A stretch of DNA of 64,000 nt. Origin: Perkinsus olseni (lineage: Eukaryota; Perkinsozoa; Perkinsida; Perkinsidae). Made by a program: the position numbers and the translations under genes. How positions within the stretch are numbered: the stretch's first letter is position 1; every line of letters begins with the position of its first letter. Below, piece after piece: positions 1 through 50,295 of this stretch. A model generated the notes under the pieces. The model made no database searches, was not told where the DNA came from, and saw only the letters and a program-made list of their open reading frames with translations. The stretch lies in NCBI GenBank assembly GCA_013115135.1, contig JABANP010000012.1, positions 124,001-188,000 of the forward strand, written 5' to 3'.

Positions 1-1399
1 CCACTGCGGCCTAACAACCCCCGGGCATCGCATTGCCCTGTGTCTGGGTGTCTCGGCCTCTCGCAAGCTGGCACTTCTGACAATATGGGTCCGAGGCTCT
101 GTCGATACGGTGCACGTATCCTCTGTAGTGTCTTTCATGCCCGATGACCAGACCGGCGAGCTTCGGTCCAGCGGCGATGTGATCTTGGACGACTCTCCTC
201 TGGCGCTGGGGTCCCAACAACGCGCGAAGCCTGTCGTTCAGCTGCCTTACCCGATCAGCACACTCCCTCTCGGATGCTCTCTTCAGTAGTGAAGCGGCTT
301 CACTGAACCCGTGTGGGCCCTTGGAGCCGGACAGCTCACGCTAACTCCATGGTGCCTTGCATCGTTGGCCCTTTTGTCCACAAGATCGTTCGGGGCTATC
401 GACCCCGTGTGACTCGGGATCCATGCCAGGCGCACCTTATAACCCAGCTGATATATAAGGGTCCTCACGCGGCCAAGCGTCTCGCTCCAGGGTTGTCCCG
501 CACGTAGCATCTGTAGGCACACTAGGGAGTCTGAGTAGAGCGTTGCCTTCTCGACTCCTTCCATTCTTGCAAGGTGCGTGAGTGCTCTCTCGATCGCTAG
601 TATCTCAGCTTGCCCTATTACGGCATAAGCTGGCAATTCGAATAGCCCTTCAGCGGACGGTTCCCTCTCGCGAGGTCTTAGGAACACGTACGCTGCTCCT
701 ACCGTCACGTCTTGGTCATAGCCTTCTTCGCCGTCCCTCCGGGAGCGATCTGTATAGACGGCGAGTTCTTCTTCGTCCCGGTCTCTCCAAGCTGCGATCG
801 CCTCATCTTTCGACGCTGCAATGCTTATGCTTCCATCCGGCGTGATTCTCTCCGCTTCCGTTCATCCATACTCTCTCGGGCTCGCATCCCGTCGTCACTC
901 TGTCGGTCATGATGGCCTCCCATTTGCGGCGCAGGGCTTTCCGTGCCCTTCTCTGCAGCATAAGAGTTGACAGGCAGTCTATCGGCCCGCCGTCGGCGCC
1001 TCTGTTGTGAGTTGAGATAAGGATCATACGGTCAATGAGGCGAGCGGACAGGGGTTGCTCACCCATGAGAATCTCAATCGCTGCCTTTGGTGAGCTTTTT
1101 GGTAGTCGTAGGCCCATCCTGAGGAAGGACCGGTAGGCTCCGTCGATCTGCTCCCTAGTCCTTTTTATTTGCCAAGGCCAGCCCCCATACGGCTAATCCA
1201 TACTCCATGATCGGCTGCCACACTGCCTGAGCCGCTCTCTCGATTGCCGATGGCGTGAGTCCGTACGTTCTCCTCACGTAACGGGTAGGCCCTACATTTG
1301 GCGATCTTGGCCATGACGTGTTGATTAAAGGTGAGAGACCTAGCTATCATTATACCAAGCACTTTTCTCATCGTCGCTCTAAAAGAATCGCCGTAATAA
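1..1399 (-). pseudogene. Non-LTR (LINE-type) retrotransposon, decayed 3' part of pol
   Basis: Minus-strand reading gives, in order, the end of a reverse transcriptase (about 1395-1150, with an LGI..RSLTFNQHV stretch typical of LINE RT tails), a connecting segment (1117-803), an RNase H domain (708-283, with E-rich helix, SDS and the closing WIPSHTG..ND.VD..A motif) and a C-terminal zinc-knuckle-like region near 220-10 (CQKC, then H and C in a second frame). At least three frame changes and an in-frame stop near 1155 break it, so it is not functional. The 5' part of pol is missing; the element stops at the MITE-like insertion at 1400, and the window edge cuts its 3' end. I infer LINE rather than LTR class from the RT-RNaseH-CCHC order without an integrase. 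Confidence 0.8.
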
Positions 1400-2026
1400 C
1401 CGTTCCAGGGTGGCTGGAAATGGGGAGTCCCCATTGGGGACTTATTCCCATAGTTCCCGGGAATATTCCCGGGGAACTTCCCCGGGTTTCCCCGGGGGAA
1501 GGGGAGAAAGGAATTATTTCGGGGAATAATATCTGCCTTTTCGGGAATTATACAAATTATGTATGAGATATCGACGAACCTGTATTTCTGAGTGACTCCT
1601 GCCTTTGTTGCTATCATGTTCATATAAAACGCCTCCGCTACGATGAAAACGTGCCTCACCGGTCCAACCGGTTGTGCCGATGATGATAAGAGGCTAGATA
1701 GCGGAGTGGCATACTAGGGGCCCCAGTACTTGCGCTCTTCGATGAGCGCACCCCCGAACGAGTGAATCGTGGAAAATGACAGGGCTCAAGGTCATTACAC
1801 TAATTTTCTCTGGCCTAGCGGACAAGAGGGCTGCCAGAAGGGTTCCTCAGCGTTTTCCGGGCTTTGATTTTGGGTTTTCGTGGGCGAAGGGCGATTTTTA
1901 TGATAGTTCCCCAAATGAGGTCCATTCGTCCCTTTCCACGCCGGCCATTATTCCCGGGAACTAAAACGGGAATTATTGGGCAAGGGAAGAATGATTCTTC
2001 CTCAGCCTTCAGCCACCCTGGAACGG
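1400..2026. mobile_element. MITE-like non-autonomous element with 17-bp terminal inverted repeats
   Basis: The ends are perfect 17-bp inverted repeats (CCGTTCCAGGGTGGCTG at 1400-1416 and its complement at 2010-2026). Subterminal sequence at both ends is rich in TTCCCGGGAA palindromes. No transposase is encoded. The element interrupts a secreted-protein gene copy: coding similarity to that family (NGYYG.SF) occurs just outside the left end, and the rest of the gene lies right of 2027. Flanking 8-mers TAACCGTT/TTACCGTT could be a target duplication. A second, partial copy in inverse orientation lies at 4503-4966. No superfamily can be assigned from these ends alone. Confidence 0.7.
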
Positions 2027-2369: not shown

Positions 2370-3105
2370 AAGGGTGAGTATGAGCTGAAGTTACCGACCG
2401 TCAAATCATCAAATTGAGACAAATTCGGACGGGGATTTAGGAAATCCCCGTCGGGGAATCCCCGAAATGCCTTTCCGGCTAGCGCATAAAGGACGCCGTC
2501 ATACGACCATCGCATGCGGTGCACGGAGAGCAAGCTGCTGTCAAGTTGACAGCGTCAACAGCAGCCCTGCATCCTGCATTCATATCGGGCAGTCAATTGT
2601 TGTGATTAATGTGTAGCTCACTCGCTCGCCATCGACGACTTCGCTCTTCAGTGATCTCAGCGAGTCAGCAAACTCTGCTGAACTTACACCAAACGTGCGC
2701 TCGTGGTTGGAATTTTATAGTCTACTAGAATTCTTCTTAAAGAGAAATCACCGCACCGCTCTCCCGCATTCTTGCACACGTCAGCTGACCTTCTCTATCG
2801 GCGCGACTGAATATGTGAAACTTCTGTTTTCCCACCGCTCGCCCAAGGGTGGGAACTCGTGCTCAATCCGTTACTGTAGAACTCAACCAGTGAGGCATGG
2901 GAATCATTCCTAGTCCATAGTAACGACTAGTATCAATAGGGGTTCTCTATCAGAGGACGGGAAGAAAAAATCTCGTAATGGGTACTGCTACAGTACTACT
3001 GTGTGGTGGGCCACACATAAAATCATGGAAAGGACAACAATGAGAATGATACAAGGTTCGGCCAAGAATTGAAGTCATCGGTCATCGTCTAATCGATTAC
3101 ACATA

Positions 3106-3549
3106 TCATCTCTGAAGCTGATACAGGTCCACTCCAGTAGAGGCAGTTGGGACGTGGAGATACTGATATCCATTCTCAATATAGCAACCAGTGATGAAAG
3201 ACTTGTCATAATACCCGGCCGAATCCTCCACGATTTGGTCACATGGAGGGTTCAGCGTCACGGTGAAGCGTGGAGCACCGCTGCCCTGGTCAAGTGTATA
3301 TCCACAATCATATTGGCCTTTCTTGAGGTGGTCTTTATAGGGAGTTATGTACACCCTTCCGCCCTGCTCGCGAGTGAACTTGAACTGAAAGATATCTGGC
3401 TCACCAGTGGAAGAGGAATAATAGGTGTAGGTTTTATCGATGGGAGATCCCAGTCCACCGGAAGAATCCTCATTGTCACCGCGAAAGGCTTCAGGGCCGC
3501 ACTGAGCGACAACGAAGGTGAAGCAGAGACCAGTTAGGTGGAGGTACAT
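3106..3549 (-). CDS. Small secreted cysteine-containing protein (family copy 1)
   Basis: The product is 147 residues with a hydrophobic signal peptide at about residues 1-17 (YLHLTGLCFTFVVAQC). The mature part contains GGRVYITPYK, YDCGYTL and TGCYIENGYQYLHVPTAS, with about four cysteines that could form two disulfides. No catalytic motif or known domain is recognised. Intronless. Orthologous copies at 9576-10019 and 12404-12841 differ mainly by amino-acid replacements clustered around residues 43-60 and 78-105. Probably secreted; role unknown. The start is supported by alignment of all copies at this Met. Confidence 0.75.
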   Translation of the reverse strand: MYLHLTGLCFTFVVAQCGPEAFRGDNEDSSGGLGSPIDKTYTYYSSSTGEPDIFQFKFTREQGGRVYITPYKDHLKKGQYDCGYTLDQGSGAPRFTVTLNPPCDQIVEDSAGYYDKSFITGCYIENGYQYLHVPTASTGVDLYQLQR

Positions 3550-3859
3550 AGGGATAATCCAAGGTTGGGACTGAGGTGGTCAATGCTTCAATACGATGAG
3601 GAACTATCGCTCCATCAATGAGGGCAACGTAGCTTCGCGATCTTAGCTTAGGGCTGTATCGCCACTTGTTGTCTCCGACGTAGCGTGTCCCGAAGAACGA
3701 ATTGCCATTAGAGTGCATTTTGGTCGTTGCATCTTGTTTCTGATTATTCAATAGCTTCCTTGAGGCAATCTCGGTTCGCCGGACCGCGAAAACCGGAAGT
3801 TCGGCACTTCTATCCTGCTTACCAATGAAGTCTTCATTGTTCGCAGTTGTGCGAGCCAT
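3491..3859 (-). other. Conserved upstream ORF in the repeat unit (122 aa), probably not a gene
   Basis: An open frame beginning MARTTANNEDFIGKQDR overlaps the start of the secreted gene in another frame. It remains open in units 2 (9961-10329) and, with a different end, unit 3 (12880-13275). Differences between units are not biased to silent sites, and the homologous region upstream of 21344 is interrupted. I read it as promoter or 5' UTR sequence that happens to be open. A real short protein is possible but poorly supported. Confidence 0.35.
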
Positions 3860-4966: not shown

Positions 4967-5367
4967 CCTGGGGTCAACAGTTCAGCTACTTCCGTTCAGG
5001 AACCTACTCTGATGCCGCAATGAACTTCCCTTCAACTCTCACTCAAGACTTGAGTCTCAAGTGGTCACAGTCTAACTCAACATGCGGAGAGAGCCTACAA
5101 CTATTCCGGACCAGCCACAATGTAGAGGGACAACTTGACGTCGACAAGAATGGATCTCGGAATAGGTATGGTATTGTATACTCGGCATAAAATTTATGCC
5201 ATAAATAGTCAGGAGAATTCTTGACTGTCGTAATCTTAAACTCTGGTGTCAAGAATCGATGCCATCAACCATCCTCTTACTAAGAGGCTCTCAGGATCAT
5301 ACGCTCGCCCGTTACTCTTCATACATAAGGCAAGAATATAGGCTGATCAGCTAACTGGTCATGAAGA
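4967..5367. other. Non-coding stretch with one 20-nt zigzag repeat
   Basis: No coding sequence is evident. Positions 5186-5205 have the pattern CATAAA-A-TTTATG-C-CATAAA, discussed in the findings. Confidence 0.6.
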
Positions 5368-5796
5368 TCATTTTTGTAACTGGTAGACATCATAGCCGAA
5401 GGTCGCGGTTGGCACATTGAATAACTGGCCGTCAGAACTCATATAGCAGCCTTTTTGGAAAGATTTGCCGTAATAACCGTTCGAGTCCAGAACGACTTGA
5501 CGGCACGGGTCCATAAGTGTCACGTTGCTGCCTTTGGCAAGAGTATATCCACAATCGTATTGTCCTTGACGGAGGTGACCTTTATAGGGAGTTATGAATA
5601 CCCTTCCGCCCTGCTGCTTAGTGAACTCAAATCTCTGGATATCTGGCTCCTTACTTGGAGAGGAGTGTAGAGTGTAGGTCTTATCGACGGGAGCCCCGAG
5701 CCCACCAGAATTATCCCCATTGTCGCCGAGGAAGATGTCAGATTCACACTTGGCCGCAACGAAGATGAAGTACAAACCAGCCAGGCGCAGGTACAT
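5368..5796 (-). CDS. Small secreted protein (divergent family member)
   Basis: The product is 142 residues with a signal peptide of about 17 residues (YLRLAGLYFIFVAAKC). It shares GGRVFITPYKGHLRQGQ, YDCGYTL and NGYYGKSF..GC with the 147-residue copies but differs widely elsewhere. It is the intact relative of the broken copy at 2027-2369. Intronless. Its 5' flank (5800-6640) is a strongly diverged version of the flank in the tandem units. Function unknown; extracellular location is inferred from the signal peptide only. Confidence 0.72.
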   Translation of the reverse strand: MYLRLAGLYFIFVAAKCESDIFLGDNGDNSGGLGAPVDKTYTLHSSPSKEPDIQRFEFTKQQGGRVFITPYKGHLRQGQYDCGYTLAKGSNVTLMDPCRQVVLDSNGYYGKSFQKGCYMSSDGQLFNVPTATFGYDVYQLQK

Positions 5797-6850
5797 TGAG
5801 AGAAGGTGAAGTACGAGCTGAAGTTCCCGATCGTCAAATCATCAGATTGAGACTATCATGCGATCAACGAGAGTGCCAAGACTGCAATTTCGTCAAAGCT
5901 TAAGTTGTATTTTTAGCTAACGACTACTTCTACTCCTGGTGCCCCGTTCGTGATGTCCCCTGGTTTCCGAATGGGTCCTGGGGTATAGCATTTCGTCTAT
6001 TTCGTCATTTAAGTTTTCCAAATAAGGAAGCCTCTTCAGGGCGATCTCGGCATGCCGGATTGTGAAAACTGGTAATGAATCTTAACAATGCGTGAGTTGC
6101 TCGTTACTCGTCGAGACATGCTCTATTGTGCGGATGTCTGTGTTCACAGTCGTCCATTCGCGCAGGCGTGTGGTTGGTGTTCAGGGAATCTTGTCCGCCT
6201 GATTTAGTTTCACTAATGACATTCCATTGGACAACGAAACACGTCACTGACTCCCACCTGTTAGTGCGATCGGGGAACCTCAGACGGAGATCACAGATAG
6301 CTGATTATCGTTAATGTCAACCTTGTGCGCTGCTTCTCTTGTGAGCTGGAAATTGTGTCTCTCGCTGAGAGTCCCTGATACAGACAGTGGAGCTCGGTTG
6401 CCTCGAGCCTGTGCGCATCACGCGATTACTCTCGGTGCCAGATATGGAACCTCAAGATCTCAGTCAGCATTTCCCCTCTTGCGGGAACTTGCAGATTCCT
6501 ATCCTTGTGGCACAGCTCTACTGGTCCAGGATGCCCTCTTCGGTCCTGGGGACAATTACTATGGTACTGTGTGGTCAGCACAAAAGCTGACAAATATTGC
6601 ACCAGAAGTTCAGAAAATGAAATTCATTTAATGAATGCCGTGCTCGCTGATGCAACGAGGTGGTGATGTTTTGAAGCCCTCTGGTCAGAGAGCAAGCTCC
6701 GAGGCTCCGGGCACGAAGCACGCGAGACGCCTATGATCCATAGGCTATGAAAGCCCGATGTCGACGGCCGGGCTCGCACATCGAAAGCTCCCGGACAAGC
6801 AAAAACAGACATGCTTAACGACTAGTTTTCGCATTCCGAGTCTGAATTTC
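5797..6850. other. Diverged 5' flank of the secreted-gene unit, no gene seen
   Basis: Scattered similarity to the upstream part of units 1-3 can be followed (for example around 6290-6350 against 4040-4100). Open frames here are short and not conserved. A single-base-centred palindrome lies at 6622-6636. Confidence 0.5.
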
Positions 6851-7062
6851 CGACGTGCCACGGGTCTGCACTTCATCTTAATATCTGCTCTGCGTGGCTC
6901 TGACAATGAGGGTAATCCCAACATACTGGGAGCTCCCTTCGATAGAGCTAACACTTTCACTTCCACTGATGCACCACATATCCAGCCTAGATAATCTAGG
7001 ACTCCTAGACTAGGAATTCCTAGACTAGGAATTCAAAGTTCTTCAAAATTGTGGATATAAGC
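6850..7062 (+). pseudogene. Remnant of the secreted-protein family, plus strand
   Basis: The plus-strand frame reads TGLHFILISALRGSDNEG..LGAPFDRANTFTS, which matches the signal-peptide end and first mature residues of the family (TGL.FIFV..., GDN..., LG.P.DK.YT). A short stretch resembling the DCGYTL coding region follows at about 7048-7060. The intervening part is deleted and there is no usable start. It is inverted relative to its neighbours. Confidence 0.6.
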
Positions 7063-7091
7063 TCTATGATAGAGCTCATATCCACAATTTT
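7045..7091. repeat. 23-bp-arm hairpin
   Basis: Two 23-nt arms, one mismatch, separated by one base. The left arm is derived from the secreted-gene remnant. Confidence 0.75.
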
Positions 7092-8890
7092 ATTAGCCTC
7101 TATCAAATCAACACGCACCGCTCCTTGAGGATCCTAGGTCTTCACTCCATCGAGATATGTGTGTGAGTTCGAAGTCCAAGGCTGACAAAACGGCTGAGTT
7201 GGCATCATTTCCGACTCGGAGACTCCGAGACTCGAAGAGCCGATACTGGGGCGCACGACGCAGATTGTGCGCACGTACACTACAGGAGCGGCACACAAGC
7301 ACAAGGGCCGCCGCTCAAGGCCCTTAAGGTTCTCTAATGAACAGGCGAGGTAGTAAGTTCGCCAAGGAAAAACATTCTTTGATGCAAGGGCGGGGGGCGA
7401 ATGAGTGCTCCCTTATCTTCTGCCTGACAGCGTCAGGCTACGAAAGGCTGCCGCTAAAGGCCTCAAGGTTCTCTAACGAACAGGCGAGGTAGTAAGCTCG
7501 CCACGGAAAAACATTCCCTCCCTCACCACCCACCAACATTCCAAACAAACAAGGAGGGGGAAAATCGACACAGCGTACGGATCTTCGAAGTGACGTCCAC
7601 TCTGCCCAACGTCTTGCGTTGTAAGGAACGAGGCTCCGTACGATGTGTACCTTACTTATACCACCTCAGAGGTGGCGCTTCTTACTGGAGGCTGCCATTC
7701 AGACTCTGAATTTCTGTGCTCCTCTGAATTTCAGAGTGGCATAGACACATGAACCTTTGGGATCTGTCGATCATGGACTCCATGATCGACAGATCCCCTC
7801 TGTTGCCCTTCTCGGCATAAAACTTCAACAGAAGTTGGAAAAATTTTCCCTCGATCGTCGTCTCAGCCGGCGAAAATTGTTGACTCGATTCTCGCGGTTC
7901 TCAAGTCTCCAAGTTTGACCAATGAAATTAGCTCATTGGTCACGTGGCGTGGCTCACGTCGCAAAACTAACAAGCAGCTTGTTACAAGCTGTATGGAGGC
8001 AGCCTCGAGGAGTCCGGAAAACCACCAACCCTTGGCCTCCATTCTCATGACTGCTGTATCGGTATACATGTAAATTTAGAACGGGTAGTGCTTTCACCCT
8101 TTTACTCGACGTTCGCATTGCGCCCACTTCTGTGAAGAGACTGACTGATTGAGATCCCAATACTCGGGTCTTGTCAACTGGAATCCAATCTTTCATCCGT
8201 AGTCTTCTCATCATCCTCTACTTAGCTTACTTCAGCGTAGCTTCTTGTCGGAGCAAGATGGGATCAGCGATATAAACATTCAACTTGAAGTTAAATGTTT
8301 ATGTCGCTTATCGTAAGTTAATAACTTCTGAAACTTTTAGCCTGGCGGTTGTCCTCGGCAAGGACATTGCGACAAGGACTCCTTGTCGCAAATTGCGACT
8401 CGCAATGTCCTGCTTCAGCTCACACCTCCAAGAGTCCCCTTGGTCAAGCGGCTTGACTCAAGCCTCGAACTTCAAGGAGAGAATAAACGGACGGTTCGGC
8501 TCAGAAAATTGGGGGACACTGTCGTACAGTGCCCTTCCAACTGTCGGAGACGAACCGTGACAGCGAAGTATAACTTCTGAATTACAATATCTAGCAGTCA
8601 TGCAAATCGCAAAACTTACCAGTTTTCCCTCGAATTGCAGGATCACTGCGCGATAACTATACCGGTCATCGGGGTCATCCTGGCCGACTCCAATAACCGT
8701 TGTCGTTATCCACTGAATAATACTGTATCGAACAGCTTATTTTTCGAGGTCCGACGAAAATGGACACTTCGTCCCCACAATATGTCACCCGTGACAACCT
8801 TCAGAGAGTGTGGCTGCCCGAGTCGGGTAGCATCCACAAGCCTCGTCTAGGAACGTCAACCCTGAATCGGATTTAGGCGGAGATTTACGG
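7063..8890. repeat. Hairpin-rich gene-free tract
   Basis: I see no gene here. The stretch contains many short inverted repeats with very small loops: 7661-7675 (7-bp arms), 7759-7797 (19-bp arms, one central base), 7916-7942 (10-bp arms), 8367-8391 (12-bp arms, one central base) and 8362-8410 (outer 10-bp arms). Three exact 20-nt zigzags lie at 7970-7989, 8386-8405 and 8444-8463. A direct repeat of about 50 bp occurs at about 7325-7377 and 7467-7519. Confidence 0.75.
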
Positions 8891-8894
8891 GGAT

Positions 8895-10985
8895 TCGGAC
8901 GGGGATTTAGTAAATCCCCGTCGGGGATTCCCCGACATGCCTTTCCGGCTAGCGCATAAATGACGCCGTCATACGACCATCGCATGCGATGCACGGAAAA
9001 CAGGCTGCTGTCGAGTTGACAGCGTCAACAGCAGCCCTGAATCCTGTGTTCATATCGGGTTGTCAATTGTTGTGATTAATGTGTAGCTCACTCGCTCGCC
9101 ATCGACGATTTCGCTCTTCAGTGATCTCAGCGAGTCAGCAAACTCTGCTGAACTTACACCAAACGTGCGCTCGTGGTTGGAATTTTATAGTCTTCTAGAA
9201 TTCTCCTCAAAGAGAAATCACCGCACCGCTCTACCGCATTCTTGCACACGTCAGCTGACCTTCTCTATCGGCGCGACTGAATATTTGAAACTTCTGTTTT
9301 CCCACCGCTCGCCCGAGGGTGGGAACTCGTACTCAATCCGTTACTGTAGAACTCAACCAGTGAGGCATGGGGATCATTCCTAGTCCATAGTAATGACTAG
9401 TATCAATAGAGGTCCTCTATCAGAGGACGGGAAGAAAAAATCTCGTAATGGGTACTGGTACAGTACTACTGTGTTGTGGGCCACACATAAAATCATGGAA
9501 AGGACAACAATGAGAATGATACAACGTTCGATCAAGAATTGAAGTCATCGGTAACCGTCTAACCGATCACACATATCATCTCTGAAGCTGATAGAGGTCC
9601 ACTCCAGTAGAGGCAGTTGGGACGTGGAGATACTGATATCCATTCTCAATATAGCAACCAGTGAGGAAAGACTTGTCATAATACCCGGCCGAGTCCTCCA
9701 CGATTTGGTCGCATGGAGAGTGCAGCGTCACGGTGAAGCGTGGAGCACCGCTGCCCTGGTCAAGTGTATATCCACAATCGTATTGACCTTTCTTGAGGTG
9801 GCCTTTATAGGGAGTTATGTACACCCTTCCGCCCTGCTCGCGAGTGAACTTGAACTGCAGGATATCTGGCTCATTAGTGGTAGAGGAATAATAGGTGTAG
9901 GTTTTATCAACGGGAGATCCCAGTCCACCGGAAGAATCCTCATTGTCACCGCGAAAGGCCTCAGGGCCGCACTGAGCGACAACGAAGATGAAGCACAGAC
10001 CAGTTAGGTGGAGGTACATAGGGATAATCCAAGGTTGGGACTGAGGTGGTCAATGCTTCAATACCATGAGGAACTATCGCTCCATCAATGAGGGCAACGT
10101 AGCTTCGCGATCTTAGCTTAGGGCTGTATCGCCACTTGTTGTCTTCCACGTAGCGTGTCCCGAAAAACGGATTGCCATTAAAGTGCATTTTGGTCGTTGC
10201 ATCTTGTTTCTGATTATCCAATAGCTTCCTTGAGGCAATCTCGGTTCGCCGGACCGCGAAAACCGGAAGTTCGGCACTTCTATCCTGCTTACCAACGAAG
10301 TCTTTCTTGTTCGCAGTTGTGCGAGCCATGCTGTTCTGTGCGGAGCCCCGCTGAACTCGGTCTTCCGCGCAGGCATACCGCTGAGTTCAGGCCTTCCTCT
10401 TCGACCAGAAATGCATCAGGCACTGCCCATCATTCCGTGGCGGACTAGGCATTGGCTCTTTGACCCCATCTGTTACAATTATTAGTGACCACACTGATGC
10501 CTCAGTCATCAGGGACGGACGATTTGACTTATGTATCCTCAACTTTGTGCACTACTTCCAGCGTGCGAGCCGCACAGTGCCATAGAAACTGTCCCAGGGG
10601 CACCGTCCCTACATGATGTAGGCTACATCGGACACACATATCATCAGGCCGCTCCTCTGCCTCAGACGAATGTCTGACTTGGAGGCTCTGAGCCTCAGAG
10701 CCAGCATACCTCAGAGTCTGAGCTATACTCTGCTGGATGGCATCACCGAGGAATGGCATTCCTGGAATACCGAATTCCCTGCCGTGTTGGCAGGGGAGCC
10801 ATGTCCTCGTCCACTGCGAGAGGTACACTGGGTAACAAATTCTTGGAAGATCAGGGGGATTCAGCATTTTGGCCAGTTACGACATTGTCTCGCAACGAGG
10901 CCTCAGTGGGTACGTTGATATGCTGCATCGGATATACCATCAAAGTTTGAAGGCAATACTCTCAGTGGCTGGCGAGAAATCGAAG
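8895..10985. repeat. Tandem unit 2 of the ~2-kb segmental repeat
   Basis: Same layout as unit 1 but without the upstream gene fragment at its left end. It carries two 14-nt insertions relative to unit 1, at 10609-10628 and 10750-10769. Confidence 0.85.
9576..10019 (-). CDS. Small secreted cysteine-containing protein (family copy 2)
   Basis: The product is 147 residues with the same signal peptide and cysteine layout as the copy at 3106. It differs at several mature positions (for example SSTTNEPDILQ versus SSSTGEPDIFQ, LHSPC versus LNPPC, FLTGC versus FITGC). Most differences change an amino acid. No domain is recognised. Intronless; flanks are duplicated with it. Confidence 0.75.
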   Translation of the reverse strand: MYLHLTGLCFIFVVAQCGPEAFRGDNEDSSGGLGSPVDKTYTYYSSTTNEPDILQFKFTREQGGRVYITPYKGHLKKGQYDCGYTLDQGSGAPRFTVTLHSPCDQIVEDSAGYYDKSFLTGCYIENGYQYLHVPTASTGVDLYQLQR

Positions 10986-11559
10986 ACTTGAGCCAAGTCA
11001 CTTGACCGATTTGCACGCAAAAACTTCTTAGAAAATCACGGCTTGGCTTCAAGGATGAGTCATATTATGACCCATCCTTGGGTCATAATATGCGATTGTT
11101 GTTGTTGGCTCGCGGGAAACGGCGTGCACCGCACACTTTCGGCAGTATAGTCGTGTTTCCCCCGCCTGAGGGCGATCCCGAAGGATGTCGGCACTCACTT
11201 CATATGTTTTCGTTCCACCCCAGCAGTATTCTTTTTTCTTTTTTTCAACCAGAAACATAGTACAGAACATGGTACACAACGGTACTCGTCATCATCAAAG
11301 CGGCTACAAAGGCCACGTGTTATACCAGTCTAGTCGGTCCCATTACGCGCTCTTCCGGCATTGCTCCTGCATAGCTATGAAGGTGACTACTTCAGTGCAG
11401 GATATATTAAGAGCAGGTTTCGTCACTCTTTTGGAGACCTGTGTTCATCAGCAGGCTTTGGGGCACTTACCTGAACGAACTCGACATCACAACAACTTGG
11501 TACTGCTAGGCTTCGGCCATTCATCTAGTCCTCGATTTCTTAAATGTGTGTTGGATTAC
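10986..11559. other. Spacer between units 2 and 3, no gene seen
   Basis: No coding sequence is supported. A hairpin with 13-bp arms lies at 11061-11092. Confidence 0.5.
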
Positions 11560-11670
11560 CAGCCCACCAGAATAATCCTCATTGTCGCCGAGGAAGACGT
11601 CAGATTCACGCTTTGGGGCACCGAAGACGAAGTACAAACCAGCTAGGCGCAGGTACAGTGAGAGAAGGCG
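11560..11670 (-). pseudogene. 5' fragment of a secreted-protein gene copy
   Basis: Nearly identical to 2270-2380. It covers only the signal peptide and first mature residues of the 5368-type gene and is truncated at 11560. It marks the left edge of tandem unit 3. Confidence 0.75.
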
Positions 11671-12403
11671 GAGTATGAGCTGAAGCTACCGACCGTCAAA
11701 TCATCAAATTCGAACAAATTCGGACCGGGATTTAGTAAATCCCCGTCGGGGATTCCCCGACATGCCTTCTCCGCTAGCGCATAAAGGACGCCGTCATACG
11801 ACCATCGCATGCGATGCACGGAGAACAAGCTGCTGTCATGTTGACAGCGTCAACAGCAGCCCTGCATCCTGCGTTCATATCCGGTTGTCAATTGTTGTGA
11901 TTGATGTGTAGCTCACTCGCTCGCCATCGACGATTTCGCTCTTCAGTGATCTCAGCGAGTCAGCAAACTCTGCTGGACTTACACCAAACGTACGCTCGTG
12001 GTTGGAATTTGTTAGTCTTCTAGAATTCTTCTTAAAGAGAAATCACCGCACCGCTCTACCGCATTCTTGCACACGTCAGCTGACCTTCTCTATCGGCGCG
12101 ACTGAATATTTGAAACTTCTGTTTTCCCACCGCTCGCCCGAGGGTGGGAACTCGTACTCAATCCGTTACTGTAGAACTCAACCAGTGAGGCATGGGGATC
12201 ATTCCTAGTCCATAGTAACGACTAGTATCAATAGAGGTTCTCTATCAGAGGACGGGAAGAAATAATTTTTTTGTAATGGGTACTGCTACAGTACTACTGT
12301 GTGGTGGGCCACACATAAAATCATGGAAAGGACAACAATGAGAATGATACAAGGTTCGGCCAAGAATTGAAGTCCTCGGTCGTCGTCTAACCGATCACAC
12401 ATA

Positions 12404-12841
12404 TCATCTCTGAAGATGATACAGGTCCACTCCAGTAGAGGCAGTTGGGACGTGGAGATACTGATATCCATTCTCAATATAGCAACCAGTGATGAAAGAC
12501 TTGTCATAATACCCGGCCGAATCCTCCACGATTTGGTCACATGGAGGGTTCAGCGTCACGGTGAAGCGTGGAGCACCGCTGCCCTGGTCAAGTGTATATC
12601 CACAATCATATTGGCCTTTCACTAGACGGCCTTTATAGGGAGTTATGTAAACCCTTCCGCCCTGCTCGCGAGTGAACTTGAACTGAAAGATATCTGGCTC
12701 ATCAGTGGTAGAGTGAGAAAAGGTGTAGGTTTTATCGACGGGAAATCCCAGTCCACCGGAAGAATTGTCACCGCGAAAGACCTCGTGGCCGCACTGAGCG
12801 ACAACGAAGATGAAGCACAGACCAGTTAGGTGGAGGTACAT
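12404..12841 (-). CDS. Small secreted cysteine-containing protein (family copy 3)
   Basis: The product is 145 residues, two fewer than copies 1 and 2 because of a 6-nt deletion after the signal peptide (GDNSSGGLG for GDNEDSSGGLG). The signal peptide and C-terminal half are conserved. Replacements cluster at residues 41-50 (YTFSHSTTDEPD) and in YKGRLVKGQ. The predicted mature protein is small and secreted, with no known domain. Confidence 0.75.
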   Translation of the reverse strand: MYLHLTGLCFIFVVAQCGHEVFRGDNSSGGLGFPVDKTYTFSHSTTDEPDIFQFKFTREQGGRVYITPYKGRLVKGQYDCGYTLDQGSGAPRFTVTLNPPCDQIVEDSAGYYDKSFITGCYIENGYQYLHVPTASTGVDLYHLQR

Positions 12842-13563
12842 AGGGATAATCCAAGGTTGGGACTGAGGTGGTCAATGCTTTAATACGATGAGGGAAGTAT
12901 CGCTTCATCAATGAGGGCAACGTAGCTTCGCGATCTTAGCTTAGGGCTGTATCGCCACTTGTTGTCTCTGACGTAGCGTGTCCCGAAAAACGGATTGCCA
13001 TTAAAGTGCATTTTGGTCGTTGCATCTTGTTTCTGATTATCCAATAGCTTCCTTGAGGCAATCTCGGTTCGCCGGACCGCGAAAACCGGAAGTTCAGCAT
13101 TTCTATCCTGCTTACCAATGAAGTCTTTACTGTTCGCAGTTGTGCGAGCCATGCTGTTCTGTGCGGAGCCCCGCTGAACTCGGTTTTCCGCGCATGCCAG
13201 AAATGCATCAGGCACTGCCGATCGTTCCGTGCCACGGAATCCGTGGCGGACTAGGCATGGGCTCTCTGACCCCATCTGTTACAATTATTAGCGATCACAC
13301 TGATGCCTCAGTCATCAGGGATGGACGATTTGACTTATGTATCCTCAACTTTGTGCACTACTTCCAGCGTGCGAGCCGCACAGTGCCATAGAAACTGTCC
13401 CAGGGGCACCGTCCCTACATCGGACACACATATCATCAGGCCACTCCTCTGCCTCAGACGAATGTCTGACTTGGAGGCTCTGAGCCTCAGAGCCAGCATA
13501 CCTCAGAGTCTGAGGTATACTCTGCTGGATGGCATCACCGAGGAATGGCATTCCTGGAATGCC

Positions 13564-16060
13564 GAACCAGTCACCAGGTTTCAAGCTGGTGATCGCAATG
13601 CCACGAGGTCCAATATTCCCGAGGGCAGATGCCAGCGCAGAGCGCTGTGGCTTGGCGGCGGCGTCAAGCAATGACCTCAGGGGATGAGACTTCTTTGGAA
13701 TGAGTCGAGACACAGGATATAGCCCATTCAATCCATCAAGATAATACATGAAGCGATTGTTAGGGGCGACACTGATCACCTTATAGTCGCCGACGATCTT
13801 CCGTGTTCCCTTCTGGGTGTAGCCAGCAAGGAGGACCACATCGCCGGGTGAATAGGCCGTCATATCACGCCTATCAGCGGCGCTGATTCAGCGCGGAGGA
13901 GCCCTTCAAACTCATCAACAGAGATTCGCTCTTCCTTCAGATGGACAAACAAGGTATAGACATCTGAAATATATTCAAGATGTCCATGCCAAAAGCCTTC
14001 AAGTTTAGAGTCGTTGATCGTACCATCACTCTGGTACAATGGATCCTCTATCTCTCTGAGAAAGGCGGTATGATCGGATCCAAGTGCGAGCTCTGAGGGT
14101 CTTAAAACAGGATAATCCGGAAGAGGACTAGCATTATGGCTTCCTACTGCAACCAAGGCAGAGGTCCACCAAGGTAGTCTTCGATGGTCATCAACTGCAT
14201 TTCCAACTCGTACAGCACTTTTAATCTCACGGTTGAGCCTTTCCACAGCCCCTCGATGTCGGGGAACTGCGGGTGTGCCGGATCGAGCTTGGATGTGTAA
14301 GGCAGGGAGGATACTGGACCAGTCTCCAGAAGCGAAAGCTGGCGCATTATCGGACTGGCAAGTGCCACGGCGGCCATATACATTCACCCACATCAGGAGA
14401 CACATTATAGCGGACCGGGTGGTACAATCCCAAGCAGGTATATTCATCGCGGGCCGCGATTCGCGGCACTAGTAGCTTCGTTAATGATTACCCCATGTAG
14501 GTCCAATGACCGGAAGATCTTTCAGTATCATTAATCGGACCAATAAAGTCAATCTGTATACTACTGAATCTTGCACCAGGCCTTCTCTCTTGAAGTACCG
14601 GAGATATCAATCTCCCAACTGGCTTGCCAATTTGGCATAATTAACAAGAGGAAGTGAATGCCACCACGTCTTTATTGAATAAAGTTCATTCATGCTGGGC
14701 CACCAGAATCCAAGTGTATTGATCATCTCAATACATCGTGGGGTTCCACGATGCCCCCTTATTATCGGGTTATCATGGTAACATTGCATTGCCCATAATT
14801 GAAACCATTTATTAGGGAGCAGGCCCTGCTCAGCAGGGTACGACTTCTCTTCTTTCCTCTGTGGAAATCAGTATAAACAAGGAGATCATCAGTCCATGCA
14901 AACTGTTGTCCTCTTGCCCCCCAGCTATCAATTTCTCAGCCTCGGGAGTATGATGAGAATCTGGCTCCTTGAATACTCTCAAGAGATCAGTAATCAAAAC
15001 ACCATATACCTTGGAGTCGTGCAAGTTATTTACATCATCAGAATTATACAAGCTCTGTAGTTTGTTGATGATGTCTTCTGGTGATTCCTCTACGATACCA
15101 TCAAGGTAAGGTGGCTCATCATCGACTGAGTTAGAGGGGTTGGTAGCGAAAAGGACTGAGGAGTTTGCAGCAGGTATAAAATAAAGGATACCTTCAGTAG
15201 AAGGACCGTTTGGAGCCATATCGAGAATGGCTGCATTATCGCCCACGACTCGGATATTTCCGAGATGGTTCCTTTTGGCGAACTGGCCAGTATCAATGGA
15301 TGGGATCTCGAGGTTAGGCTGTTTCGACTTCAATCTTGAGAGGGCATCCGCACGGGCATTCTGCTCTCCTTCAACATGTCTTGTTCACACTGTGATGCCG
15401 TTGTTTTCTTTTAAATCCTCAATTATCTCATTGAGATTAAAACACAAGCGGTTAATGGCTGATGCGTCAAATGAGCGCATATTTGGGCCCCAAATTTTGG
15501 GGCCAATGAATTTCCCCAACTGACTGCGCACTGATTATCAGATACCACAGTCAGTGAGTGAATTCGGCCCAATGGAAAGCGCTTAGCTAGTGTTGCTCCG
15601 TTCTGTAGAGCATGAGCCAGACAATATATCTCTTTCCTATTCGCATGCCAAGCACTCCTCTCCTTTGGCTTAAATAATGAAGCGTATTCGCTCAAGAGTG
15701 TCGGATCATAATTGCTTCCATTGCTCTCTACACACCAGCCGTAGCCGTCATAACTCGCATCACAATGGACAATTACAGCTTCATGGTCCAGAGTTGACTA
15801 ATATGTATACATGGTGATTTCGAGAGCGAAACCATATGCTGTTTGATTGAACGAAGACCGTCCGCGGTAACCTTATCCATTTTCCATAGTCGGCCCCAAT
15901 CGGCCTTCTTATTGCCAGGGGTTTTACCGATCCATTCAACGCAGATTGTCATCGCACAGACGGAGCTCACCATGAACTCTGCTCGGAAGAAGACTTGGAG
16001 CGGTGATTATGCTGCAAAGCTCCTTTCCAAGGTGGAACCCATTGCCTTCGGATACTAGAA
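13564..16060 (-). pseudogene. Ty3/gypsy-like retrotransposon pol, 5'-truncated and frame-broken
   Basis: Minus-strand order: end of RT (about 16050-15790), RNase H (15770-15440, HCDAS then RKEIYCLAHAL and VSDNQ), the ADALSRL motif (about 15350), a spacer, the integrase zinc module (14790-14600, H..GH.GTPR..I...FWWPSM), the integrase core (14520-13860, with QSDNAPAF and HRGAVERLNREIK) and the C-terminal GDVVLL...VSRL SH3-like module (13863-13600). RT fingers and palm, gag and LTRs are absent. Frames are broken near 15800 and 15780, and by a 14-nt insertion at 14447-14466. The ADALSR motif and domain order support Ty3/gypsy class. Confidence 0.85.
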
Positions 16061-16940
16061 AGTTTGTGATAGGAATGCGGCATTGCCGATTCCGTACGAG
16101 GATGTCGCTTAAGAGTTGCTCCGGTAGAAATTATATTCGTTAAAGCAATTTTGAACCCACTTATATCGTAGCGGTCGTGTCGGTCTGCGCCATGCTCGTC
16201 AATAGCGCGTAGCGTTCGAAGGTCCTAATGTAAAGAGTAAGTCTTGAAATAGTTATTTCTTGAGTACATTAACGAGACGGCCGCAACAAATCTGTCTTGC
16301 AGAAAACGAGCTGTCGAAGCTTTGTTGCCATGCTCTGTTGTGTTCTCTCCAGTGACGCGTACTCAACTACGGGTGTACATATTCGTCCGTTCATCAACGT
16401 GACAGGTTGAGTATGCGTCATTTCCCAAGTTTTATCTGCTATCGCTCAATCAGCGGCGTATAGCGCAAAACCCGTCTATGCCTCGATGCCATCATCGTCG
16501 TCATGGAACGCACCCGACCTACCTCGAGCGTACCCGGGCGACGTGGCTCAAGTGGCTATCGCAACCGCCGCCACACAATCTGCTTGCCGGAGAATCTTAG
16601 GCCAGGCTGGTTCTCTGTTTGGCACAGCTCTTCGAAGGCGCTCGAGCTACTTCGTCCGACTTGACTCCCACGGTTCAAGACACATGAGGCCCTCATGTGT
16701 CTCCCGAACTCATGTACCCTCATGATGAGGGTACTTCCTCGGCAAGAACGGGAGACATTTCATAAGATGCCTTTCGTGTTATCTTTGTTGACGATCTCCG
16801 AGCAGAAGAACAGCGCTGCTTGAAACGTCGTGTTAAGAGGTAGGAAAACAAACAGCTGCATTCGCAAGGCTGATGTGATCATCCAGTCAACTCTATCGGC
16901 TCGTCTGCCCATAAAATTGCACCACAGGGCCGTACCTGCC
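16061..16940. other. Duplicated 3' flank of the AROM gene, no gene seen
   Basis: About 16165-16940 aligns with 22250-22920, downstream of and within the end of the AROM gene. Two adjacent palindromes with one central base lie at 16679-16701 and 16714-16734. No independent coding sequence is supported. Confidence 0.55.
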
Positions 16941-19900
16941 ACTGAGCGCAATGCGACGTTGTCTGTCTTTTCTTACACATCATTTCCGAAGGCTTCCCTA
17001 GGCATTCCCGTCCACAGCATGCTTTGCTCAATACCCTGAAGGACCTAAAACGCCCTGGCCTGGAACCAAGTAGGCGGGGTGATGCTCACCAATATCTCGA
17101 GGCCATGGACGATATTGCGACACCCTAATTCCCCTGCCGTTCGCGTTAATGGAGTTTTCTGCGGAATGTACCTGCGTTTCTCATGATAGGACAACCCCTG
17201 AGCTGACGAACGCTCCGATAGGGAGGGCAAGAATCCTATATCAGAGCCAGGTGAGCTACGGAAGTGGCACGGCGGTCTCGAGACGTTCATCTTGTGTGCG
17301 AATACATATTCTAGGCGAATCAAGAGTCGCTTCCGGAGTCGTTCGATTAATAACTTAGTCGATCGGGAGTGTGGGGTGAGGACTAACAGGTCGAAAACCC
17401 GGCCCGAGAGCTTGAGTAAAGGCTCACCACTCACGGGTTTCCGACCGATAGTCACATTACCTCCTTTGAGAGGCCCAACGCCTCGAAAGAGGGCCCCCCC
17501 CTCAGAAGGTAATGTCTCCCGACCAACTAAAAGAAAAATTTCTTCGACGAGAGCTCGGACGGATGACTCAGCCCTGGTCAGGTCATCCCTCTGGCGCCCT
17601 CGGCAACCGTTTCGTGCCCACGGGCGCGCGCCGCACTCTCTCGCGATTCCATCCGCTCCCTTGAACTTGTTCTCAATTCTTGATAACTACACTTGAAGGC
17701 ATTTTTAGTCAGTAGTAATGAAACTCGAAAGGCACAGCAAAATCACTAGAAATGTCAACAAAGCGCCCCGAACGAAATAAAATGCTCGATGCCGCGCTGG
17801 TGCTCAGGTAATGCAGGAGGCTTGCTTTTCACTTATGATGCTCGAAAAAAGTTGACACAATTGGCGCTCAGTCTCAGATCTCTCGACCGGTCGGCTCTCG
17901 GATTCTGACACTCGCGCTTCCTCACGCCAATGGATACCTCGAACTTACGCCATCTCAAGTACCAACGGATCTTTTGAGAATCGCCACTGCGACCAGACCT
18001 GTGCGTCGCCAGCTGGCACGCAACCGATAATAACGTCAAAACTACCAGTGCCGGGGTCCGATGGGCAGACCTGAGCGCAGGGCCATGCGCAATGCTCCGT
18101 CAAGCAACATAAGTTCAAACAAAATTATCGAAGCCCTCCCGCCTCGATCTTGGCAAAGGTGGACTCCACCTGATGGAGTGAGCTGCTCAGACACATCGCG
18201 TCAACTTGAAGCTTCCAGGCGAACGAACGAACGAACGAACGAACGCACAGAAAAGCGCAGAAGTGACGGTATATGCACCGCTCGCCTCGCTCGCTACGCA
18301 ACTTTCCGCCGCATCTAGCAGATGTCATCTACTGAGCATCATACTGGGAAGTTTACCAGCTATTATTCCTTCAGCAGGTACAAATTTCCAGTTTACTAGT
18401 TTCCGCCTTTCTCATTGGTTTTGTGCTACAATGGCTCCTTCAGCGAAGGACTTTCACTCTTCACTACTGTCTGTAGTCTAGATGGGGCTAAATCTCACCT
18501 GGCCATTCACGAAGTCTTGAGCAAGCCTCGAGAGCCTCGTTCGGATCTCTCCCTCACACGCAAATCTTTTCCATGCCCAGCAGCTCCGCAGCAGCGCACG
18601 CCGCTCTGGCAGCTCCGCCAGTGCCGACCACCAAACACGTGGACGCCAGAACCGACCACCAAACACGTGGACGCCAGAGCCGCCTTAGTCCGTCTAACAA
18701 CAGAGCGACAGAGAGACACCAGGCGAGGAGATCTCACATGGACTCTGCCAAGGCCAGCGTGTCAGTGTTGTGGAATGAGAGGGAGCCGTCGTCGTGCTTG
18801 GCGATGGTGTTCACCACTTGTGCTGATGATGCCAACTCTGATATCCTTCCGTGGGCTCACCGGACACAGCATGGAAAACCTTAACATACGCTAGTGATTA
18901 CAAATGAACGCTATTCGCGGACAAGTCTGAGACAAAAAATGCGCGAATAACACCGAGACAAAAGAGAATCAAGCGCAGGACACAGAATGGAAAACCTGGA
19001 CAGAGGAGACACGACGCTGCTGGCTGTTGAATGAGAACTATTCACGAATAACTCTATAATGAAGACTATTTGCAAACAACACTGAAATGGAAAAAATTCA
19101 CCAACAACTTCGAGACGCAAGAAATTGATCGCGAACAACTCTGAAATGAAAAGTTTTCGCTAGCATCCCCTGCGGAAAGAAGCCGAAAGATCGGCATACC
19201 TTTTCTTTCAACGGTATGGTGAAACTGGCACCACCAAAGTCGTCCGGGCCATCAGAGAGGGCACATCATCCAAGCTGCTCGTGTCGAGTCTCGACTCGAG
19301 ACTCTCGAGTATCTTGCGCAGCGCAAAGATTCGTCCAGCTGACCCAGGCTAGACCACTCACTCGTGAGGCAATCCGAGGGTCTTAAATATGTGGTTGTGC
19401 AGTGCTGGTGAGGGGGACTTCGCCACAGGACTACCGAGAACGAAGAACCTGAGAAAGCGCTGTGGAGTTGTCTGGATATCTATAGTATAAGAATACAGTA
19501 TATCTATAGATTTAGTGAGTGCAGAGATATGCATGGATATTCATATGGCTATGATGTAAGGCTATTTTTAACATAACAAATGAGGGAATATCAAGTTGGT
19601 GAAGTAATATTAATACATTCATTTTCATAGCACACGAAACTATAGATTATACATGTAAATTTTATGTATACATGTTATGCGTAATGCATAAATGTATGGA
19701 TACAATTTGTATCATACAAATAAACATTTATAACAAATTCATGGATATTTATCTGTGCAAAGGAGAAAAATTATTCAAGTTGAAGTGAAATTGATGGCCT
19801 TCCGCGCAACGAGGACCGACTTTTTCTTTTGCTTCTCAGCTGCAGTCGTTCCGAATGCAGAGCCTGCCGCATCGTTCTCAGCTCCTTCAACGACAGCTGC

Positions 19901-20060: not shown

Positions 20061-21343
20061 AAGATAATAAAAAAAGGAAACAAAGAAAAAAAGCGAAAAA
20101 ACAAAAACAACAAGAGAGAAAAAAATACAAAAATGTATCACTTCTTGCCATTATCGAATCACTATGAACCATTGAGCACCATTGATTAGCGGCACGACTG
20201 TTTCCCTTTCTTTCTTTTCTCTTCCTTCTTTCACGCTCGGCGCTTGAGAAGCGGACGTGGTGGAGCACTACAGCCTATAGTCTACAGGTGGTGAAGTTCC
20301 AAGCCAGGCGGGACGAGAGGTTCTGCGGACTTGTTCCGCGTGTCGTAAAGGCCGTATACTGCTGCAAAGCGATCGGCAAGGCCACCCCAAACAAACAATC
20401 AAACAAACAAACACCCTGCGCTACAGCTCACCGAGCCCCAGCTACAATCCGAAGACTGTCTGGAAAATCCTGGGGCGCATATCGCCCAGTGCAGCACTCG
20501 ATTGAAGCTTTCCTTATACATCGTGCTGTACTGTACAGCCTGTACATGGTAAAACTCGTACACATGATGCTCGTACAGCTCGTACACTTACAACTCAATA
20601 CATCGGCATTTCGTAAATTCATTCATACAGACACCCACAGTGGGTGTCTGTAGGAAACTCCTACTAGGAATGAGTGGGTGACCCACTATCCACTCGTACA
20701 CCTTCATTTCTTTCCACTATGCGAAAATTTTTCGCGGAGCGGCTCCGCGACTTGCCTAAAAAAATTTACTGCAAGCCTCGATTCTCAAGGGCATTACTGC
20801 CTGACTCATTGTGCGAGCCGCGCGCTTGGACTCTAAGTCTTGAAGTAGCGCACAAAGCTGAGGATACAGAAGCCCAATTGCCGGAGCGACGAGGTCAATG
20901 CCTTGCCCGTCACCGAAATTATCTGTTTGATGGTTTGACGTTTGATGGACTTCTGGTCGAAGAGCAATCCCAGAGCCGGGCGACACGGCATCGCGGGACA
21001 CCGAGTTCAGGAGGGCTCCGCACGAGAGGGCATGGCTCGCACAACGACGGACAGCAGCAAATTCGCTGGTAAGCACGATTGGCGCTTCAAACTTTTTGTT
21101 TTCGTGGTCCAGCGAACGGATATTTGCTCAGACAAGCCATCGCATACTCAGGAATGAGACGCAAGGACAAGAATGCGCTTTATTGGTAATTCCAAATTCG
21201 GGACACGCTACGTCGTAGACAACAAGTGGCGGTACAGCACCTCAGCTAAGATTGCGAAGCTACGTCGTCCTCGTTGATGGAACTATAGTTTCCTCATCGT
21301 ATTAAAGCGTTGACCGCTTCGGTCTCAACTTTAGATTAACTTT
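20061..21343. other. Spacer with palindromes and the 5' flank of the plus-strand secreted gene
   Basis: From about 20930 the sequence is homologous, in inverse orientation, to the 5' flank in units 1-3. It includes a broken MARTT frame at about 21030 and the conserved stretch near 21200-21300. Palindromes with one central base lie at 20628-20650, 20721-20735 and 20733-20749. No other gene is seen. Confidence 0.55.
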
Positions 21344-22617: not shown

Positions 22618-35198
<12,581 letters not shown>

Positions 35199-48223: not shown

Positions 48224-48395
48224 CTGCTTCTTGTTGCCAGCATTCTCCTGCTCGGCCTGAGAGATCGAGAGAATGTAAAGAAGCGCCTCATTTAACGGGC
48301 CTCGGCCCGACAGCTTGCCAGCGGCAGTCGAGCACGGGAAACCCTGGGACGCCACGATTAACAAGCTCCTGAGTAGGCGACCTAGGGATTCAACT

Positions 48396-49814: not shown

Positions 49815-50295
49815 GGTTAAATCTGAGGAGAGTGGGAGCGATTTGGTAGTGGCCTAGGGAAGAGAGGGTGCTGCAGAGGGGGTTGTTCAACAACTTGTTG
49901 ACAACAAGTCAACACTATTCGACTCAAATGCTCTTGCCGGCCTTAGAGTTAATAAGCCTATCGTCTTACATACGGCCCCCACGAGCCAATCGTGGGCCGG
50001 ATCAACATCACGAGCGAGCGGACTCTGTCGAGAGCAAGGTCGACCTCAAGATGCGTCGAGATGAGAATATCGGGCGTGCGCGAAAATGTCGACTATTCGC
50101 TCATTTGATACATTGTGGCGTTGTGCGGACGATACCGCGTCATCCTCTCTAACGCCCTCCTCAAGTCTTGCTTTAACAGTTTCATTTTTCCTATTTCATC
50201 ATCTTTCCCCTGTGCTGATTCGACGTGCTACTACTTCTCCTTTTGTGATCTCCCCCTCTACGTTACAGCCATAAAACCCCTGAATTACCACTGCC
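49815..50295. other. Shared 5' region of the dehydrogenase and the histidine phosphatase
   Basis: The genes diverge here. Inverted repeats lie at about 49888-49915 (GTTGTT/AACAAC and ACTTGTT/AACAAGT). No gene is seen. Confidence 0.5.

Follow-up and report, generated by a model that had tools for sequence, protein, structure and literature searches.

The question raised by this locus of the Perkinsus olseni genome is what process writes short zigzags into DNA, in which a hexamer is followed by its inverted copy and then by the same hexamer again, with single-nucleotide spacers in between. The zigzags lie in a window of 64,000 nt (positions 124001-188000 of contig JABANP010000012.1, designated C24; assembly total 61.5 Mb), whose first-pass annotation listed 11 of them, ascribed them to a process and not to a repeat family, and proposed either double template switching or a hairpin-opening nuclease, as in transposon excision. 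The 8-mer on which each zigzag is built does differ between sites, in agreement with a process, and the nuclease is the better of the two ideas: the zigzags are very probably the footprints of excised hAT-type transposons.

All 11 sites were recovered where they had been placed, 10 of them exact and the one at 10750 with the single mismatch already ascribed to it. They represent part of the full set, as the window holds 22 exact units of the 6-1-6-1-6 form, and each of the other 35 spacer combinations (0 to 5 nt) with 6-nt arms yields no more than 3. The hexamer pattern is real but masks a true unit that extends one base further at either end. In 21 of the 22 exact units, the base preceding the first hexamer pairs with the second spacer as its complement, and in 21 of the 22 the base following the last hexamer likewise complements the first spacer. 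Written in full, the unit is 22 nt long and reads X1-X7, rc(X1-X8), X2-X8, where X is a site-specific 8-mer and rc denotes the reverse complement (a 7-8-7 form with 14 constrained positions). The window contains 20 perfect units of this form, 34 with at most one mismatch (14 with exactly one), and 43 with at most two. When the target length is varied from 5 to 13, the perfect units number 7, 0, 2, 20, 0, 0, 0, 0, and 0. Among the units with at most one mismatch, 33 of 34 lie before position 20,700 and the remaining one is at 49887; the first 20.7 kb of the window is a zone with frequent paralogues.

A comparison of observed with shuffled counts, which the first-pass annotation had proposed, was made on a 258-kb sample comprising the window and 20 further stretches. 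It found 114, 158, and 223 units at no more than 0, 1, and 2 mismatches, respectively, versus means of 0.0, 0.2, and 1.0 in five first-order Markov resamples, and the 22-nt units are not a product of chance. The perfect counts in this sample for target lengths 5 to 12 are 17, 2, 2, 114, 0, 0, 0, and 0, so that length 8 alone stands out. A larger, non-random 303-kb set (228 kb from a contiguous part of C24, with mainly hAT neighborhoods in the remainder, and four 3-kb loci chosen for matching one zigzag pattern) includes 137 perfect units, 130 of them distinct by flank. Genome-wide, a pattern covering the 8 hexamers of the form TCRRRA has 325 matches, where about 1 would be expected at equal base use (9 fixed and 9 two-fold positions), and 28 strict zigzags are present among the first 40 matches listed. 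The reversed pattern has 30 matches; it provides no null, since a zigzag read backwards is still a zigzag, and serves instead as a count for other hexamers (ARRRCT). One single-hexamer zigzag pattern has 5 matches genome-wide versus 1 for its reverse. The TCRRRA class accounts for 3 of the 137 units in the 303-kb set, and this share together with the 325 matches places the genome total roughly in the order of 10^4, an estimate based on three sample events. Multi-unit zigzags make up 3 of 257 chains. Those at L060 (C12:76240-76320), L061 (C85:6705-6785), C24:85045, and C24:91287 look like repeated insertion and excision at one site.

Comparison with paralogues shows that the unit arises as a net insertion of 14 nt. 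An empty site was defined as a paralogue that has the 8-mer once and aligns on both flanks, and such paralogues were found for 23 of 262 units with at most 2 mismatches (34 alignments), the total of 262 including units within 60 nt of the stretch ends that lay outside this test. Some alignments are weak (73 to 76% identity), and one is inside a tandem repeat. In the window, empty-site paralogues accompany the perfect units at 1420..1441 (a 58-nt alignment), 5041..5062, 10608..10629, 13225..13246, 19288..19309, and 19699..19720 and the one-mismatch units at 5273..5294, 10749..10770, and 20650..20671. The scar at 10608 is young, as its two empty paralogues are 99.2% identical over 128 nt. The net gain of 14 nt thus agrees with the earlier claim that exactly 14 nt are absent from paralogues at six sites; the sites given as 10609, 10750, 13226, 19289, and 19700 bear this out, and the sixth, 13542, failed the empty-site filter. 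The first-pass annotation had also held that its account would be contradicted by indel sizes without a peak at 14 nt, and a peak at that size is what the gapped paralogue alignments display (n = 74; 57,259 columns). Of 145 distinct indels, 14 nt is the commonest size above 3 nt (10 bearer rows at 9 sites, all at listed footprints), while the sizes from 10 to 13 nt are represented by 0, 1, 1, and 0 indels; both 15-nt indels also sit at footprints. Direct 7-mer repeats scored by offset are in no excess at 8 or 14. The lack at 14 is due to the repeated part of the scar being only 6 nt, and the same scan shows no sign that target duplications persist as simple tandem repeats.

The paralogues also bear on the possibility that the zigzags are artefacts of assembly, library preparation, or sequencing, in which inverted copies are common through chimeric reads. 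One unit recurs in diverged tandem paralogues, at 8914..8935, at 11739..11760, and, with one mismatch, at 2444..2465, and likewise the units at 10749 and 13541..13562 (10750 and 13542 in the first-pass annotation, which suspected a shared origin) probably stem from one event; some of these copies have acquired later point mutations. Identical scars in diverged paralogues, together with an 8-mer preference that is that of a transposase (below), leave the artefact explanation with almost no probability.

hAT transposases cut one strand 1 nt outside the element and join it to the other strand at the border, as in Hermes and Ac. Published footprint rules and models for such excision are given in passages of PMC5873905 and PMC1978519. 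The unit geometry, the spacer rule, the target preference, the empty sites, and the resident hAT genes and 8-bp-duplicating elements are matters of observation, whereas we infer the enzymes, the order of the steps, and the assignment of elements to scars. Insertion of the transposon would duplicate the 8-bp target X. At excision, the two strands of each flank would be cut at different points, one of them at the transposon border and the other 1 nt outside it, and the flank would be sealed as a hairpin. The left hairpin would join X7 to the base complementary to X8, and the right one would be its mirror image. A host nuclease would then open both hairpins and leave 3' overhangs of at least 8 nt. 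These overhangs, which would be inverted copies of X, could anneal over 8 nt, after which flaps would be trimmed and gaps filled. The predicted product is X1-X7, rc(X1-X8), X2-X8, which would be 14 nt longer than the empty site and matches the observed unit. The scheme further predicts that the spacers would be the complements of the outer border bases if the overhangs were 3' and identical to the border bases if they were 5'. Among the 138 exact hexamer zigzags of the 303-kb set (hexamers of one or two letters left out), the spacers are complementary on both sides in 124, identical on both sides in 1, and mixed or neither in 13; palindromes centered on the complement of the transposon-border base are accordingly present on both sides in 124 of the 138.

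The targets recorded in the scars have a base preference of their own, estimated from 129 of the 130 distinct events, the flanks of the remaining one being incomplete. Of the 258 positions concerned, 110 carry the favored base, T at X2 or A at X7 (P = 8.6e-10 versus 25%), and the two bases are found together in 24 of the 129 events versus about 8 expected. G at X1 or C at X8 is more weakly favored (95 of 258). The pattern nTnnnnAn is a preference and not a rule, as one or both bases are missing in 105 of the 129. The ten-fold gap between the TCRRRA pattern and its reverse (325 versus 30) agrees with the preference for T at X2 and A at X7.

P, Merlin, Zisupton, and Kyakuja elements are further superfamilies with 8-bp duplications, and P excision usually leaves transposon ends behind. 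The perfect units contain nothing besides X and its complement, and remnant transposon ends are absent from them, which argues against P elements. Transib/RAG-type excision, which involves a 5-bp duplication and a hairpin without the 1-nt offset, does not fit the 8-base unit with its 1-nt offset. A scar that retains no transposon sequence does not name its element, and resident hAT copies look few beside the scars, so that one of the other superfamilies, or breaks made by a domesticated transposase without any excised element, could be considered; the title of a study on Kat1, a hairpin-forming domesticated hAT transposase, appears among the citations of PMC10368747. We nevertheless regard this alternative as unlikely, since both the palindromes on the border-base complement and the nTnnnnAn preference are reported for hAT elements in passages of PMC5873905 and PMC10368747.

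Excision through hAT hairpins would leave a second kind of trace, as hairpins that did not anneal over the 8-mer would give two palindromes of unrelated arm length around the duplicated 8-mer. A generalized two-hairpin scan over center distances 1 to 120, with one shuffle as the control, found 158 products versus 1 at distance 7, which is the 22-nt class, 12 versus 0 at distances 8 to 33, and 16 versus 5 at distances 4 to 6. The clearest long products have arms of 7 and 21, 16 and 11, and 14 and 8 nt that cover the center distance, and some others are weak (one with arms of 1 and 4). The window contributes one product of unequal lengths at 1470..1501 (C24:125477), with centers 17 apart and arms of 9 and 6. 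Outside the 22-nt units there are also 22 palindromes (a few mutually paralogous) whose loop is 1 nt and whose arms measure 10 to 34 nt, versus 1, 0, and 2 control palindromes with loops of 0, 2, and 4; loops of 3, 5, and 7 were unused as controls because they contain the 1-nt-loop palindromes. One of these in the window is perfect, with arms of 19 nt (7759..7797; C24:131778), and is perhaps a one-sided product of a hairpin opened distant from its tip. Perfect 1-nt-loop palindromes at C24:116851, C24:106360, and L013:1293 have arms of 34, 24, and 23 nt and are perhaps one-sided excision products as well; the two-hairpin scan found no second hairpin at these three places.

The same products bear on the other idea of the first-pass annotation, replication template switching, in which a fork would copy back about 8 nt and then forward again, with no transposon involved. 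A direct-inverted-direct zigzag is the expected product of a double switch, and the few multi-unit zigzags (3 of 257 chains; L060 and L061) would fit it too. Such switching would not predict a unit length fixed at 8, a target preference resembling nTnnnnAn and that of hAT elements, or longer products made of two hairpins with separate arm lengths that are both centered on the complement of the 8-mer border base, and we consider it very unlikely.

Excision of hAT elements further predicts that the genome holds such elements. The hAT dimerization domain (PF05699) was found at 21 places, and the 12-mer TAGAGATGGGCA at 35 places versus 5 for its reverse. A TAGAGATGGGCA end lies within about 1 kb of 7 of the 21 domain places. 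At one of the 21, an open frame of 668 amino acids (L034:3877-5883, minus strand) combines DUF4371 and hAT C-terminal domains, and around it, at L034:3723-6413, lies a terminal repeat pair (3 mismatches) with an 8-bp duplication. Eight copies of a mobile family with CAGGGTCGTTGG ends were read at both ends; the 8-bp duplication is perfect in 7 of them and agrees in 7 of 8 bases in the remaining one, with 7 distinct sites in all as two copies share one. This count leaves out C682 (without a recognizable left end) and C223 and C295 (single ends). C24:114219-114826 was confirmed as a member of this family, with 7 further copies read at both ends. No transposase was found for the CAGGGTCGTTGG family, which we take to be hAT on the rule of duplication length and ends. 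The CAGGGTCG family, with 8-bp duplications, is hAT by its ends only. hAT transposases and elements with 8-bp duplications thus occur in one genome. At one site of the CAGGGTCGTTGG family, the element is present in two contigs and the site is empty in five places. A brief look at repair genes found one SNM1/Artemis-type domain and one short Ku match (E value, 4.7e-5), which does not settle the pathway.

Several observations weigh against excised hAT elements as the source of the scars. The filled CAGGGTCGTTGG site just mentioned has 5 empty paralogues and no scarred one, and no site was seen in the empty, filled, and scarred states, the pairs observed being empty with scarred and empty with filled; filled alleles at two other sites were sought by pattern, with no match. 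In the sample, a scan for terminal repeats with flanking duplications of 5 to 10 bp gave 6, 4, 0, 3, 0, and 1 candidates, with no peak at 8. The scars seem to outnumber the resident hAT elements by far (counts of the latter are lower bounds), which suggests that most sources may be lost, diverged, or missed. Short footprints, at center distances 1 to 3, are at background (20 versus 19 in the shuffle) and are common in published Ac/Ds work, so that the scars resemble known hAT footprints in their geometry but not in how their lengths are distributed. An excision that restored X exactly would leave nothing to see, and the dominance of the 14-nt scar is accordingly one among visible products only.

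Some candidates for filled or complete elements were read in their own right. A search by flank pairs returned 59 'filled' matches that, on reading through, look like neighboring paralogues or tandem repeats, and a DNA search with window positions 13600-15100 found one other copy, which is unbroken. The three terminal-repeat candidates at 8 bp are C24:114219-114826, L009:529-1975, and a third that resembles an effect of tandem duplication. A hAT domain lies within L009:529-1975, which is found again in C25 next to 12 identical flanking bases, with 7 of the 8 duplication bases alike there; the left end of L009:529-1975 is only a candidate because the left flank is common to L033.

The geometry of the scars has a published counterpart. 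Footprints of hAT (Ac/Ds) excision are palindromes whose center is the complement of the transposon-adjacent base, according to passages of PMC5873905, and the 1-nt spacers of the zigzags are just such a complement; the earlier statement that no described system gives this geometry was therefore too strong. Ac/Ds footprints in yeast, Arabidopsis, and Candida albicans resemble those of Perkinsus in such palindromes, in hairpin opening, and in microhomology joining, as described in parts of PMC5873905 and PMC1978519. The distributions differ, as Ac/Ds footprints in these sources are mostly short, whereas the 22-nt product is found at many unrelated sites in Perkinsus. In C. albicans, 28 footprint types are described among 128, the two commonest numbering 35 and 18, with P insertions of no more than 3 nt, and in Saccharomyces cerevisiae the palindrome arms reach 20 nt and 47% have arms of at least 3 nt (passages of PMC5873905). 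A single prevailing product at one donor site is already known, since 11 of 17 Ds excisions in Arabidopsis gave one footprint at a single donor site (from the part of PMC1978519 covered).

Hermes, another hAT element, is described in passages of PMC10368747 as having an 8-bp target duplication and an nTnnnnAn preference, both of which the Perkinsus scars have in common with it; as a difference, the Perkinsus consensus is nearer GTYnnRAC, with weak positions. In mPing, the duplicated target likewise provides the microhomology for repair (literature listing of PMC4561436), but this repair is described as precise, whereas the annealed overhangs of opened hairpins in Perkinsus would add the inverse of the target. 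When two rice genomes were compared, the 94 excisions, which came from several superfamilies, had mostly left deletions and filler, as stated in passages of PMC4423477. None of the literature matches listed (titles and abstract starts, with subscription journals little covered) reported a uniform 14-nt scar or Perkinsus footprints of hAT elements, and in the passages and listings covered the full-length product was not met as the dominant scar of a genome.

V(D)J coding joints, made by RAG and Artemis, are another case of flank hairpins that are opened with 3' overhangs and leave P nucleotides. They resemble the Perkinsus scars in these three features and differ in that they are without the 8-bp duplication on both sides and without the 1-nt offset.

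By the sequence features tested, the zigzag is a hAT excision footprint, and it works like one; the mechanism is of a known kind, and what is unusual is how nearly uniform its outcome is. The uniformity, the long hairpin opening, and the abundance (roughly in the order of 10^4) are new to us. We lean, by a modest margin over even odds, towards the view that in this Perkinsus lineage the hairpins left by excision are opened 8 nt or more away from the tip, with 3' overhangs in nearly all cases, and that joining proceeds mainly by annealing of the inverted target copies, which would make a stereotyped +14-nt scar the chief visible excision product, with copies in the order of ten thousand. The finding is of interest for its scale and because the scar can be read on its own, rather than as a new kind of system. 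Excision scars are usually varied and hard to recognize without a matched filled site, whereas 14 constrained positions make this one self-evident. As it records the 8-bp target, a single assembly suffices to count past excisions, to date them against paralogues, and to map them, and a simple 7-8-7 scan is applicable to any eukaryotic genome. If this reading is true, the scars would be a readable ledger of transposon departures and would rank among the leading sources of mid-size indels in non-genic DNA. They also show, naturally and on a large scale, how hairpins are opened and joined through microhomology in an alveolate, a group in which, to our knowledge, such data are scarce.

The remaining footprints of the window, like those above, have no strand assigned. 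Perfect units listed earlier from 5186, 7970, 8386, 8444, and 14447 occupy 5185..5206, 7969..7990, 8385..8406, 8443..8464, and 14446..14467, and the units given above as 10608, 10749, 13225, 13541, 19288, and 19699 start in the same way one base before their earlier coordinates. Further perfect units are located at 6615..6636, 13873..13894, 14817..14838, 15481..15502, and 20525..20546, and the sole perfect unit beyond 20,546, at 49887..49908, lies just outside an open frame (48396-49853, minus strand). Units with one mismatch are located at 289..310, 2538..2559, 6730..6751, 6833..6854, 6995..7016, 9406..9427, 10985..11006, 14670..14691, 18157..18178, and 20267..20288.

Apart from the footprints, tandem-duplicated blocks of the window encode related short proteins with a signal-peptide-like start (judged by eye) at 3106-3579, 5368-5838, 9576-10049, and 12404-12871 on the minus strand and at 21335-22162 on the plus strand, the last with a Thr/Lys-rich repeat tail and no Pfam match. 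A Pfam scan of four frames left two without a match. The minus-strand frames at 17045-17686 and 22979-23434 have in common a stretch around an 18-residue sequence or a near form of it, which represents repeated sequence. Two adjacent open frames at 46818-49853 (minus strand) share long identical stretches, and the second (48396-49853) has acyl-CoA dehydrogenase domains. At the end of the window, a nucleoside-transporter frame matches a Perkinsus olseni protein at 99% identity across 94% of the frame.

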